Source of the DNA: a virus
Length of the DNA stretch: 21,766 nucleotides
IMG/VR virus record: IMGVR_UViG_3300031722_000181
Location: 1 to 21,766 of that record
Direction: 5' to 3' (one strand)
Positions 4,211 to 8,842 of this stretch are shown here, in pieces. The position numbers were made by a program, and so were the translations under genes. Each line of letters opens with the position of its first letter. The first letter of the stretch is position 1. The notes under the pieces were generated by a model. That model was not told the DNA's origin and did not search any database. It saw only the letters and a program-made list of their open reading frames with translations.

Positions 4211-5257
4211 ATGGACACACCACCTCCAGTGCAACTACCGCCAGGCCCCACCCCCGAATTTGAGGAAGCCACATCGGCCGACCTTGAAAAAATTTTTGGA
4301 AAAATTCCTGCCCCGAGCGTGACGTTTGACGACGACGGGAGTGTGGTCAGCGGGCTCCCCATACCCGAGCCACCTCCGGCACCCGTAGCAGAAACCCCGG
4401 CAGTGAACCCCGATGTGGTGGCCGCGACTGAAAACACGCCGGCTGGTAAAGCCAGCACACCTTCGAAAATTCTTAGTAAAGCGGAAGACGTCTCGGCGGT
4501 GGCGAGCCCACCCTTGCCGACGCGTCAACAAATTGCCCTAAAGGCAAGAACTGATCTAGGCGTCAACTGGTCAGCGGCCTTCCTGCTCTTTGCTAAAGGC
4601 GTATCGCTGAAGCAAATATCAGTCGAGTTCGACATCCCCTTTGCCAGGTTGACGGAGCGGTATTTCAAGGAAGACTGGGAGACGTTGGTCAAGAAGCACG
4701 GCGGGGCACTGGTGTCCGCACCTCCCAAGCCTGAGAACGTGCAGCTGGCTTTGATCGAGACGGAGAAGCGGATGAAGCGAGTGATCGAGAACCGCGACCG
4801 CAACTACGAGTCTGCGGAAGCCCTCCGTGAAGACATCATGAAGGTCATCGCTGCCTACCGCGCTGATAACCAGTTTCTCCGGCCGGACGATATTGCAACG
4901 CTGGCCAAGGCGCTGAAGATGACCTTCGAGATAAGCCAGATGGCGCTGGGCGACGATTTTGTCCTCGGCAAAGCAGGCGAATCTGGGAAGGGTGGAGGAG
5001 GCAACAACATGCGGCCAATCATCATCAACCTGCCTTCGGCGGTGTCGATGGGCAAGGATCAGCGCCGGGCCGAGGTGGTCGGTGAGAGCGAGGACCAACC
5101 CGCGCCGGGCAAGGAAGTGGATGCCGACGCGGTCATCGAACTCGCGGTGGTGGGCAAGACCCAAGGCGATCGAGAGGCCAAGCCCGCCGCGTCAGGGAAA
5201 GGTTGCGGTGTGAATTTCGAAGCGTTACCCAAGATCAAGCCAGCCTCAACTCCATGA
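4211..5257 (+). CDS. Putative terminase small subunit, 348 aa
   Basis: The small terminase recognises phage DNA and hands it to the large subunit. Here the first 100 residues are Pro/Ala-rich and probably disordered. Residues of about 120-155 (NWSAAFLLFAKGVSLKQISV, then a second helix ending RYFKEDWETL) look like the helix-turn-helix of small terminases, and 180-220 form a charged helix that could oligomerise. The C-terminal third is low-complexity. Position supports the call: it starts the packaging module, two tiny genes before TerL, in a coupled run. The length exceeds most small terminases because of the disordered ends. A different DNA-binding packaging factor is possible. The Shine-Dalgarno is weak (AGG). 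Confidence 0.6.
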   Translation: MDTPPPVQLPPGPTPEFEEATSADLEKIFGKIPAPSVTFDDDGSVVSGLPIPEPPPAPVAETPAVNPDVVAATENTPAGKASTPSKILSKAEDVSAVASPPLPTRQQIALKARTDLGVNWSAAFLLFAKGVSLKQISVEFDIPFARLTERYFKEDWETLVKKHGGALVSAPPKPENVQLALIETEKRMKRVIENRDRNYESAEALREDIMKVIAAYRADNQFLRPDDIATLAKALKMTFEISQMALGDDFVLGKAGESGKGGGGNNMRPIIINLPSAVSMGKDQRRAEVVGESEDQPAPGKEVDADAVIELAVVGKTQGDREAKPAASGKGCGVNFEALPKIKPASTP

Positions 5258-5406: not shown

Positions 5407-5637
5407 ATGAAAAGCGCAAAAAAGAAACTCGGCTATGCTGGCCTCAAATCCATGCCTACCCGAGCTCGCCAGGCCTACCTCAAAAAGGAAGGCTTTATCC
5501 TCGGCGTGTTTGTGTGTCATCACTGCGGGGCTACTCTTCCTGACGCTTCGTCTGCTCCTGCCGAAATGCGCAAGGTCAAGAAATGTTTTTGGTGTGGCCG
5601 AAAGGCCGGTGAGTTCAAACCCGATCTCGGATCATGA
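5407..5637 (+). CDS. Small zinc-ribbon-like protein, 76 aa
   Basis: Two Cys pairs, CHHC near residue 37 and CFWC near residue 60, separated by about 20 residues, fit a zinc ribbon. The N-terminal part is basic (KSAKKKLGYAGLKSMPTRAR). A GGAGG (5392-5396) lies 10 bases before the ATG, inside the preceding gene. The stop overlaps the TerL start (ATGA, 5634-5637). Its place between the terminase subunits suggests a role in packaging, or a small regulator, but the function is unknown. Confidence 0.6.
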   Translation: MKSAKKKLGYAGLKSMPTRARQAYLKKEGFILGVFVCHHCGATLPDASSAPAEMRKVKKCFWCGRKAGEFKPDLGS

Positions 5638-8156
5638 GCACAAAGTCTTCACCTGCCCCGACGACGGAAGAGCTGCGAAGCTCCGCGCTCGTTGGGACCC
5701 CCGACGAGTGGTACAAACCCGGCCCAAGCATCAAGGAGTTTCACCGTTCACCTGCGAAGGTTCGGATACTGATCGGAGGCCGTGGGTCCGGCAAAACCAC
5801 AGGCGTCGCAGTCGAGGCCGTTGAGCACTGCGTCAACAATGCTGGTGCGAAGGTCCTGTGCGTGCGACAGACGCAGGTCGCTAACGATGACACATCGGTA
5901 AAGACCTTCGATGAGGTCTATACGAACATGGGGTTTGCGGTAAACACCGACCCCGAAATTTCGCTGTTCAGGAAGTGGAACGATGGTCTGACCGCACGCA
6001 TCCCCTCGCGTGATGCGGTCGAGGCTTATAACAAGTTCCTTGGGGCAATGCAGCGGACGCGTGCCCAGATCAAGACGTGGATCGAGAACGAAGGCGACCG
6101 ACTGTGCTCCTACATCATGTTCCGTGGTCTGAAGGACGACCAGAAAGCACAGGGTCAGCTGCGCGGATTCGAGTGCTCGATGTTCATCGGTATCGAGGCC
6201 GACTTGCTGAACGAATCTGATATAGACCTAGCGATCGGTTGTTTGCGCTGGAAGAACGCTTACGGCCAGTATTTTGAGCACTACACTCTCATTTTGGACA
6301 CCAATCCGCCCTCCCCGAGGCACTGGATTGCCCTACTGGAGAAGAAGAAAACGGTCACGAAGCCTGACCCTGAGTATGCTTTTTGGCACATTTCGACCTA
6401 CGAGAACGCCCACAACATGCGTCCGGGGTATGTCGAGGACCTTGAGCGCCAGTATGCAGACAAGCCCGCGCACCGGAGACGGTACATCTTGGGCGAGTAC
6501 GCGGACCTCTTCGACGGCTCCCCCGTTATCCACAAGTTCAAAGAGGACAAACATGCCCGCGAGGAGATCGGCTGGCCGTCCGGCGCGTACCTTGTGCGCG
6601 GCTGGGACTTTGGTTCGACCCACGCCAACACCTTCTCGGCTTACTTCAAGGTCGATTTCGACGTGGGCGGCAAGATCGTACCCGTCGAATACTGGTGGGA
6701 CCTGCACGAATACTACCAAGAGATGAGTGATGTGGACCGCCAGTGCGCGGCTGTCCTCGAAATCACCGATCGTGAGTTCCCATTCTGGAACGACCGGTCC
6801 GTTTGCGCGGGTGTCCTCGACTACTGCGACCCGGCAGGTGCCCAGAAGAAGGACACAGGTTGCTCAGTGACGGTTCTCAACAACAACGGCATCTACCCAC
6901 GCTGGCAAACGCGTGTCCGAAGTTTGGATACAACCATCGCGATCGTGAATCGTTTGATGGAAGTGAAGGACCCGCAGGGCCGGTACACCTACAAGATCGA
7001 CAAGAAGTGCTGCCCGCGCCTCTACGCTGCCATGCTGGGTGAGTACCGCTACCCCTTTGCCGGAGAGCCAGGCTACTCGTCAGGCGAACCGATCAAAGGA
7101 CCCAAAGCCAATGGGTCGGACCATATTTGTTTTGCAGCAGGGACACTGGTCCAAACTGAGTATGGGGAGAGGCCGATTGAACAGATAGAAGCTGGTGAGA
7201 GAGTCTTGACTCGCCAAGGCCTCAAACGGGTAAACCGCGCATGGTTGTCAGGCAAGAGCTCTCCCGTCAGAAGGTACAGTTTTTCTAACGGGCGGGAGTT
7301 GGTGGCTACACTGGAACATCCGGTGATGTCTGAAGCAGGCTGGATTCCTATTGACACGCTCAGATATTCAGGTATCGAGGTGTATTCATGGAGCAAATTG
7401 AATATAACAGCAGGACTTACCGAAGATACCCGGAGTCGAAACGCAGGAGCGACCGAGTCTATTTCAAACACCACACCGAATGGCTGCACCGGAGAGTCTA
7501 TGAAGACAACTTTGGGCCAATCCCTGAGGGGTTTATCATCCACCACCGGGACGGAAATCCCCAGAATAACGACCCTGCCAATCTTGAGGCGGTTACTCAA
7601 AAAGTTCACCTTAGTGAGAGACACCCTCATCGCAGAAGTTTTCCTGAAGCTGCAAGGCACGCAGCCGCAGAATGGCATAGGTCAGACGAAGGCCGAGCAT
7701 GGCATAGCCGTAATGCTAAAGGTCGGAAGGTCCCTCTTGTTGAACGGGTGTGCAAATGCTGTGGAAACCAGTTCACAGGGACAAGCACGTCTGAGTACTG
7801 CAAACCGTATTGTAAATCCAAATACAGGACAAACTCTGGTGTCGATAACGTTGAAGTCGAATGTCCCATGTGTGGGAGTATCAGACTTCATAACAGGTAC
7901 AAACTACATGGAGACGGGACGTGCCACCCTTGTTCAATCAAGCGCCGTGATGAACGCAGACGTATATGCGCTAAGTGTTGAAGAGATCCATGAGTTTTTT
8001 GCCGAAGGTATTCTAGTATCTAACTGTGATGCTGCACGCTATCCGAAGATCAATCTGCTCCAGCTCGCGCAGAAGATGATGGACGAGGCGCTAAAGCCGA
8101 ACACCGGCCCGCTGGGCAACACGGCCAAGAAGCTCAACCGGACCCGGACATGGTAG
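5634..8156 (+). CDS. terL: Phage terminase large subunit, interrupted by an intein
   Basis: TerL is the ATP-driven motor and nuclease that pumps and cuts DNA at the portal. The 840-residue precursor has Walker A GGRGSGKT (48-55), a likely Walker B strand MFIGIEAD (183-190) and a coupling motif LDTNPP (221-226). The RNase H-like nuclease domain follows, with GWDFG (Asp325), LDYCDP (Asp396/Asp399) and the third motif SDHI/CDAARY. That last motif is split by an intein occupying residues 499-797. Removing it leaves 541 residues, a normal TerL length, and restores GSDHICDAARY. The start overlaps the zinc-ribbon gene by 4 bases. Active packaging enzyme would require splicing, because the nuclease site is broken in the precursor. 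Confidence 0.93.
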   Translation: MSTKSSPAPTTEELRSSALVGTPDEWYKPGPSIKEFHRSPAKVRILIGGRGSGKTTGVAVEAVEHCVNNAGAKVLCVRQTQVANDDTSVKTFDEVYTNMGFAVNTDPEISLFRKWNDGLTARIPSRDAVEAYNKFLGAMQRTRAQIKTWIENEGDRLCSYIMFRGLKDDQKAQGQLRGFECSMFIGIEADLLNESDIDLAIGCLRWKNAYGQYFEHYTLILDTNPPSPRHWIALLEKKKTVTKPDPEYAFWHISTYENAHNMRPGYVEDLERQYADKPAHRRRYILGEYADLFDGSPVIHKFKEDKHAREEIGWPSGAYLVRGWDFGSTHANTFSAYFKVDFDVGGKIVPVEYWWDLHEYYQEMSDVDRQCAAVLEITDREFPFWNDRSVCAGVLDYCDPAGAQKKDTGCSVTVLNNNGIYPRWQTRVRSLDTTIAIVNRLMEVKDPQGRYTYKIDKKCCPRLYAAMLGEYRYPFAGEPGYSSGEPIKGPKANGSDHICFAAGTLVQTEYGERPIEQIEAGERVLTRQGLKRVNRAWLSGKSSPVRRYSFSNGRELVATLEHPVMSEAGWIPIDTLRYSGIEVYSWSKLNITAGLTEDTRSRNAGATESISNTTPNGCTGESMKTTLGQSLRGLSSTTGTEIPRITTLPILRRLLKKFTLVRDTLIAEVFLKLQGTQPQNGIGQTKAEHGIAVMLKVGRSLLLNGCANAVETSSQGQARLSTANRIVNPNTGQTLVSITLKSNVPCVGVSDFITGTNYMETGRATLVQSSAVMNADVYALSVEEIHEFFAEGILVSNCDAARYPKINLLQLAQKMMDEALKPNTGPLGNTAKKLNRTRTW
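7377..7380 (+). promoter_or_regulatory. Internal Shine-Dalgarno for the nested HNH gene
   Basis: GAGG lies 7 bases before the ATG at 7388, inside the intein coding sequence and shortly after block B. The spacing is ideal for independent initiation and argues against the HNH frame being accidental. Confidence 0.6.
7388..7981 (+). CDS. HNH homing endonuclease encoded out of frame inside the TerL intein
   Basis: This 197-residue protein is read in the -1 frame relative to TerL. Residues 32-74 carry an HNH_3-like pattern: WLHRRVYEDNFGPIPEG, then IIHHRDGNPQNNDPANLEAV with His52/His53, Asn57, Asn61, Asn65, and His74. Three Cys clusters follow that may bind zinc: Cys122/Cys125 with Cys138/Cys142, Cys159/Cys162 with Cys179/Cys182, and Cys194/Cys197. 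The gene begins about 45 bases after intein block B and ends on the first codons of block F. It thus fills exactly the slot of an in-frame endonuclease domain. Its frame has a stop at 7352-7354, so it is not a read-through product of upstream translation. By family it should cut intein-free terL alleles. Confidence 0.88.
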   Translation: MEQIEYNSRTYRRYPESKRRSDRVYFKHHTEWLHRRVYEDNFGPIPEGFIIHHRDGNPQNNDPANLEAVTQKVHLSERHPHRRSFPEAARHAAAEWHRSDEGRAWHSRNAKGRKVPLVERVCKCCGNQFTGTSTSEYCKPYCKSKYRTNSGVDNVEVECPMCGSIRLHNRYKLHGDGTCHPCSIKRRDERRRICAKC

Positions 8157-8180: not shown

Positions 8181-8194
8181 GGAGAGCGTTGCAA

Positions 8195-8842
8195 GTGAAA
8201 CTTGTTGACACGGCAAGTCTCAAAGACGAAGTTTCCAAACTGTCAAACCTTCCTCCCATGAACTCTCTCATCGTTTCCGACAAAGAAAAGTACGGGGAAG
8301 ATTCCCCCAGTGTTTGCTGCCCGAGCGGTCCAGGCGAAAAGCCCAAGCCTGAAGACCGAAAGAGCGCCCCGACATTCGATCTCGTCGGGCCACAAGTAGC
8401 CGCCCTCGACATGGACAACGACGCCGCAGTCGGCAAGGTCTACGTCGCCAAGGTGAAGCTCATCGTGAAAGCCGTCTCCGATGGCGACAAGTACGACAGC
8501 AGTGTAACCGAGGCAGGCAAACGGAAGAAGCCCAAGACCGTGACAGTCCAACTGATCGCGGCGGCACCGATCCCTGAAGGCGACCCTGCCCACGAGGACG
8601 AAGAGACCCCAGCCGAAGAAGCTGGTGAAATGGCGGCTGAAGGTAAGGGGGAGGAAGAGGAAGAGGCAGATGAACCTGCTGCCGGAGAAGCGTCCGAGAC
8701 CCCAGCGGAGGAAGGCGCCGAGGAGGCTGGAGAGCCTGCTGCCGGAGAGAAAGCCGAGAAGCCCGCCAAGGGCAGAAAGAAAGCCAAGGAGTCCGAGAAA
8801 ACGGACTACGTTTCGCCTGCTGAAGCCGACCTCCCTGAATAA
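8195..8842 (+). CDS. Acidic low-complexity protein between TerL and portal, 215 aa
   Basis: The first 130 residues look globular and include KVYVAKVKLIVKAVSDGDKY, a probable beta-rich segment. From about residue 130 on, the protein is Glu/Ala/Pro-rich with repeated PAAGE motifs and ends in a Lys-rich stretch before DYVSPAEADLPE. I do not recognise a family. Position between TerL and portal suggests a virion or assembly role. I chose GTG 8195, which lies 10 bases after GGGAG (8180-8184); an in-frame TTG at 8189 would be too close to that site. The disordered tail may bind another virion protein. Confidence 0.6.
   Translation: MKLVDTASLKDEVSKLSNLPPMNSLIVSDKEKYGEDSPSVCCPSGPGEKPKPEDRKSAPTFDLVGPQVAALDMDNDAAVGKVYVAKVKLIVKAVSDGDKYDSSVTEAGKRKKPKTVTVQLIAAAPIPEGDPAHEDEETPAEEAGEMAAEGKGEEEEEADEPAAGEASETPAEEGAEEAGEPAAGEKAEKPAKGRKKAKESEKTDYVSPAEADLPE

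Follow-up and report, generated by a model that had tools for sequence, protein, structure and literature searches.

Two coding frames within one terL gene

The stretch of viral DNA analysed here (IMG/VR virus record IMGVR_UViG_3300031722_000181; "the window" denotes the whole stretch of 21,766 bases) has a head-and-tail gene region that encodes portal, major head and tail proteins, and it contains terL, the gene for the terminase large subunit (TerL), which carries an intein. One reading frame of the locus encodes TerL together with a Hint domain that has a linker of about 170 residues between its two halves, and the −1 frame encodes a complete nuclease of the HNH_3 type. The features of the locus are the following.

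5634–8156, + strand: terL open reading frame (ORF), 840 amino acids with the intein in frame, open throughout; matches Terminase_3, Terminase_6N and phrog_2, terminase large subunit (E 6.4e-30)
5634–7127, + strand: TerL N-extein, ending ...NGSDHI at the nuclease-domain motif DHxxDAxRY, as aligned with the intein-less TerLs L316, L317 and L329
7128–8024, + strand: intein, 299 codons; matches Pfam Hint_2 and Intein_splicing, TIGR01445 and TIGR01443; ends set by empty alleles
7128–7388, + strand: N-terminal half of Hint, intein residues 1–87; AlphaFold2 pLDDT >90 through residue 80
7377–7380, + strand: GAGG, a Shine-Dalgarno (SD)-like site 7 nt ahead of the HNH ATG; anti-SD pairing −7.2 kcal/mol
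7388–7981, + strand: HNH endonuclease gene, 197 codons with an ATG start, in frame −1 relative to the intein; matches HNH_3 (E 4.7e-16) and phrog_15471 (E 5e-24)
7401–7901, + strand: intein-frame linker, residues 92–258; predicted disordered (pLDDT ~45), without protein-level conservation
7911–8024, + strand: C-terminal half of Hint, residues 262–299; pLDDT >90 from residue 271; matches TIGR01443
7979–7981, + strand: HNH stop TGA, spanning the Val-Glu codons GTT GAA of the intein C-block; placed likewise in relatives
8025–8153, + strand: TerL C-extein, starting Cys(+1)-DAARY, as aligned with intein-less TerLs

A first-pass annotation had placed an intein of 299 open codons in TerL and, in the −1 frame within it, a 197-codon HNH gene with GAGG 7 bases before its ATG; both placements hold. 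When the two frames were searched against profiles, Hint matches fell in one and HNH_3 in the other. The intein frame matches Hint_2 (E 1.5e-7), Intein_splicing (E 4.8e-5) and the N- and C-terminal splicing regions of TIGR01445 and TIGR01443, and it has, in frame with terL, the sequence features of an intein, namely Cys1, a block B TxxH (TLEH at residues 61–64), a C-terminal Asn299 preceded by Ser298, a Cys at +1 and, in the predicted structure, a Hint fold. The intein ends VYALSVEEIHEFFAEGILVSN, after which comes the +1 Cys. Across the family the catalytic residues of Hint are kept, Cys1 being present in 192 of 196 sequences and block B reading TxxH in 173 and TxxN in 20. AlphaFold2 gave both Hint halves a pLDDT above 90 and the linker about 45; the Hint model matches the gp41-1 and RecA inteins structurally (E ~1e-5), and the best solved match of the Hint profile is gp41-1 (6qaz, E 4.7e-21). 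(Note that the alignments used for structure prediction comprised the window and the loci fetched by our scans, rows from annotated phage records being left out.) The candidate of a group I or group II intron with an HNH ORF was rejected, as no intron family in Rfam was matched between window positions 5000 and 10500 at E up to 1.

The predicted HNH protein carries, besides HNH_3, two CxxC...C..C zinc-finger-like motifs, and its residues H52, H53, N61, N65 and H74 are invariant in an alignment of 61 sequences. Its AlphaFold2 model has a mean pLDDT of 92.6 and a pTM of 0.58, and the HNH profile matches the I-HmuI structure 1u3e (E 8e-5).

Recurrence of the nesting and probable mobility of the element

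With tblastn this nesting was detected, each time in the phase of the window, in TerL from Tetrasphaera phage TJE1, Acinetobacter phage Highwayman, one Rhodobacteraceae phage and one contig of a faecal phage. When IMG/VR and genome contigs were scanned, the set grew to 316 sequences, which were sorted by profiles of the N part of Hint, the C part of Hint and HNH. (Class counts are of distinct HNH sequences and are lower bounds rather than frequencies, and the viral scans favor close relatives.) At least 164 distinct relatives are nested in the phase of the window, with the intein frame at HNH+1, and at least 8 loci are nested in the other phase, with the intein frame at HNH+2 (L131, L150, L154, L162, L211, L212, L223 and L249); 26 loci whose spanning ORF is open, although their C-block scored below threshold, were classed as nested after inspection of their tails. 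At least 24 distinct relatives are split inteins around HNH, among them Brochothrix phage BL3 with an HNH remnant only, and at least 32 distinct members of the family are free-standing HNH genes. Among the matches listed, HNH in frame with Hint was found in two distant homologues only (L307 and L314). Out-of-frame nesting of HNH in a TerL intein is widespread, occurring at at least about 170 distinct phage or prophage loci. In the two canonical homologues the element lies in long host ORFs (L307:818–1678 and L314:3132–3995) at the site ...NPC|C. Two nested loci, L260 and L294, are on contigs filed as archaeal (a Thermoplasmatales and a Nitrosotalea metagenome-assembled genome), which might derive from archaeal viruses or have been misbinned.

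In the inteins sampled, the insertion points differ by a few codons and lie at, or close to, the nuclease-domain motif DHxxDAxRY of TerL; among 130 N-exteins scanned with Pfam, 60 matched Terminase_3 and 54 Terminase_6N. TerLs 66–73% identical to that of the window (the empty alleles, which include L316, L317 and L329) have no insert at the exact junction. Two contigs (L324, after 3907, and L325, after 3478), in which TerL is 50% identical, have at the exact TerL site of the window a mini-intein without HNH, and another (L327, after 3931) has an intein-less TerL with a +1 Cys (DHV|CDASRY), possibly a remnant left by an intein since lost, or else a pre-adapted target. The inteins of L226 and L240 are 83% identical in Hint and 68% in HNH, and their TerLs 36%. 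Judged by sequence comparison, the empty alleles, the mini-intein and the spread among distant TerLs make up the pattern of a homing element.

The HNH protein might instead be a packaging partner of terminase that merely resides in the intein and is not a homing enzyme. HNH proteins beside terminase are reported to be packaging partners in phages such as HK97, a role for HNH proteins that is discussed in PMC10448857, and free-standing members of the present family adjoin intact terminase genes (L010, L015, L047, L075, L079, L086, L090, L091 and L096). The HNH gene of the window, however, sits within a splicing element, at the very motif which that element interrupts; the closely related TerLs without the insertion imply that the HNH is dispensable; and Hint and HNH are held in common by TerLs as distant as those of L226 and L240. 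A role confined to packaging thus seems improbable, although of the alternatives it is the one we would least readily discard.

Probable expression of, and selection on, the overlapping frames

In 170 of 172 nested loci the HNH gene has its own start codon near the expected place (ATG in 158), and the HNH frame is closed by a stop at a median of 5 codons upstream of that start. Anti-SD pairing at nested HNH starts has a median of −4.4 kcal/mol, as against −1.7 at internal ATGs (the ATG nearest the projected start; p ~4e-18). In 99% of the 137 loci measured, the HNH stop is no more than 30 nt from where the Hint C-block begins, with +5 and +17 the commonest positions, and in free-standing and split relatives HNH starts at the same place as in nested ones. 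Because of these separate starts, the enriched SD pairing and the closure of the frame upstream, internal initiation is favoured over frameshifting as the probable source of the HNH protein. Programmed −1 ribosomal frameshifting from the intein frame would yield, instead of or beside free HNH, a fusion of the N-terminal part of TerL and of Hint to HNH, and the window is compatible with it insofar as the HNH frame is −1 relative to the intein and open for 11 codons before the ATG. Against it stand, besides the start signals, the eight loci that use the other phase and the start position common to free-standing and split relatives, and we regard it as decidedly unlikely.

Differences between relatives bear out which frame is read as a protein. 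In 30 close nested pairs, codon positions 1, 2 and 3 of HNH differ by 0.20, 0.15 and 0.41, respectively, and the amino-acid sequences read from the HNH, intein and third frames are identical at 0.76, 0.52 and 0.51 of positions; HNH is therefore under protein-level selection. The linker of the intein, in contrast, is conserved no more than the unread frame and is merely kept open. It matched no family in profile searches of Pfam, TIGR and PHROGs.

It had also been argued that 195 codons without a stop would arise by chance about once in ten thousand, a figure that is wrong for this locus: when the codons of the HNH gene are shuffled synonymously, so that its protein is unchanged, the intein frame of the window stays open in approximately 27% of trials, and the case from the single locus is modest. 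Over the 164 nested loci of the same phase, synonymous shuffling predicts 331.7 stops in the intein frame and none was observed, whereas the third frame has 2835 against 2957 expected; in the eight loci of the other phase the intein frame has 0 stops against 80.9 expected and the other frame 79 against 66.6. The nested class is open by definition, and the stop test consequently leans on the comparison with split inteins (154 stops observed, 153 expected) and free-standing HNH relatives (225 observed, 225.5 expected), and on the count of loci holding both intein halves, of which 172 of 195 are open where about 23 would be expected by chance. Stop avoidance is present where the intein lies on one ORF and absent where it does not, and a chance open frame is ruled out by the family, not by the window alone. 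(On the opposite strand an open frame of 201 codons, window 7073–7678, lies across the N-terminal half of the intein and HNH; it shows no sign of being a gene.)

These comparisons bear on two further explanations, each of which we consider exceedingly improbable. If the linker frame encoded a functional second domain, both frames would be under protein-level selection, and a few linker columns, such as G125 and G183, are indeed near-invariant; such columns, however, look like out-of-frame shadows of invariant HNH codons, and the linker was rejected as a protein domain on account of an identity equal to that of the unread frame, its predicted disorder and the lack of a family match. An error of sequencing or assembly, or the decay of an in-frame intein of the kind found in the distant relatives L307 and L314, is refuted by recurrence in one phase (at least 164 distinct sequences, including the isolate phages TJE1 and Highwayman and isolate genomes), given also that close relatives are nested out of frame, that no single indel could leave the two Hint halves sharing a frame from which HNH is excluded, and that the active-site residues of HNH have nowhere been lost in the 61-sequence alignment.

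Known inteins, split inteins and the dual-frame arrangement

We think it likely that the locus represents a dual-frame homing intein in phage TerL, whose splicing protein and endonuclease would be separate products of overlapping frames. On the terL message, ribosomes would make a TerL–intein precursor, from which the intein with its disordered linker would splice itself out, and ribosomes starting at the internal site would make free HNH protein. In co-infecting phages, the HNH protein may then cut terL genes that lack the intein, at the codons for DHxxDAxRY, and repair would copy the element in full together with the +1 Cys. The linker frame would be selected for the absence of stops only, and a stop arising there would convert the locus into a split intein whose halves flank HNH. 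The suggestion in the first-pass annotation that splicing and homing are uncoupled at the protein level and coupled on the DNA stands as far as the frames are concerned, which are separate and each a complete ORF; that both proteins are in fact produced is a matter of inference.

Several observations weigh against this reading, in addition to the openness by definition of the nested class. In the window, Ser precedes the terminal Asn, where His is the usual residue, as is also the case in 29 of about 164 scored relatives. A Foldseek comparison of the HNH model with I-HmuI is weak (E 0.035, prob 0.91, TM 0.26). Finally, the similarities of Hint and of HNH are loosely correlated (Spearman 0.30), and exchange of HNH between inteins is therefore likely to occur as well.

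A homing intein is described as a single protein that has two activities, and in canonical bifunctional inteins the endonuclease is normally in frame and part of the spliced polypeptide. The window resembles these in having an endonuclease between block B and the C-terminal blocks and an insertion in a conserved host motif; it differs in that the HNH gene is in the −1 frame, so that no in-frame endonuclease is present and the predicted endonuclease is a separate protein. Mycobacteriophage inteins, for some of which splicing and endonuclease activity were shown, likewise lie in phage TerL, but at sites in the ATPase domain (Kelley et al. 2016, PMC5050341) rather than at the C-terminal nuclease-domain motif; an out-of-frame HNH was not noticed in the sections consulted. 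In natural split inteins, or 'fractured genes', the endonuclease gene lies between the halves (Dassa et al. 2009, as cited in PMC7090010). The Hint profile best matches gp41-1, and at least 24 relatives are split around this HNH family, with the two Hint halves on separate ORFs; in the window and at least 171 other loci, by contrast, a single ORF carries both halves and runs on through HNH. The element in the window is, by all sequence tests, an intein and, by motif, carries a putative HNH endonuclease, and it is neither canonical bifunctional nor split.

The closest published case appears to be the ShiLan domain, or Pacc40 gp60 insertion, an out-of-frame HNH of about 195 codons hidden in phage DNA methylases (Arsenault, Gosselin, Gogarten 2025, PMC11855218). 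There, too, the HNH is in a different frame of the host gene, the host frame is kept open and the distribution is homing-like. The ShiLan insert, however, has no intein motifs or splicing domain, is predicted to stay in the protein, and was found to have no ribosome-binding site (PMC11855218), whereas the HNH of the window lies between two Hint halves with splicing residues, in TerL, and has an SD signal; given its Hint domain, the insertion in the window is not of the ShiLan type. Our searches of the open literature turned up no account of an intein whose endonuclease occupies a different frame; a 2025 preprint on actinobacteriophage inteins of non-canonical architecture (Gosselin, Arsenault, Gogarten; 10.1101/2025.01.02.630785), outside the literature covered, may describe unusual arrangements of intein and endonuclease and may overlap.

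In the split relatives the N-half ORF ends near the HNH start, and in five loci (L073, L087, L100, L206 and L209) the start of the C-half overlaps the HNH stop and has an SD pairing of −6.4 to −8.4 kcal/mol, so that these loci look like real genes and not errors. TerL is in two ORFs with HNH between the intein halves in L073:1360–3765, and also in L087, L100, L102, L206, L209, L264 and L273. The records of two isolate phages, Vibrio phage 1.245.O (L098) and Brochothrix phage BL3 (L097), annotate pieces of an apparent split TerL intein, as 'hedgehog/hint domain protein' and 'gp3'; BL3 retains just the zinc-finger end of HNH. HNH trees intermingle the nested, split and free-standing states, and the eight other-phase nested loci fall within a clade that consists largely of split inteins. 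In a more careful tree, restricted to one clade, these loci sit among split ones, and a single clade of split loci was rejected with p 0.024, for a grouping picked after the first tree and with an uncertain root. Because of the post hoc grouping, the less than extreme p value and the root, the direction of change is a proposal. It is conceivable, if somewhat short of probable, that dual-frame inteins are an evolutionary link between contiguous and natural split inteins: with HNH an overlapping gene in its own right, a stop arising in the linker would split the intein and leave the endonuclease gene between the two parts, and split forms could re-fuse in the other phase.

(Downstream of terL, at window 8189–8842, lies an ORF of 217 codons with a strongly acidic, repetitive C-terminal half and no match in PHROGs.)

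Natural split inteins such as gp41-1 are widely used tools, and the loci described here offer a testable route by which they may have arisen. They also form a large natural collection of overlapping genes, in which the free-standing and split relatives serve as built-in controls. They suggest that very long disordered insertions may be tolerated at this site of Hint, and that surveys of inteins confined to the host frame would miss the endonuclease. The two activities of a homing intein would in this family reside in overlapping genes, such that the same bases must serve both and yet each protein could be made alone.
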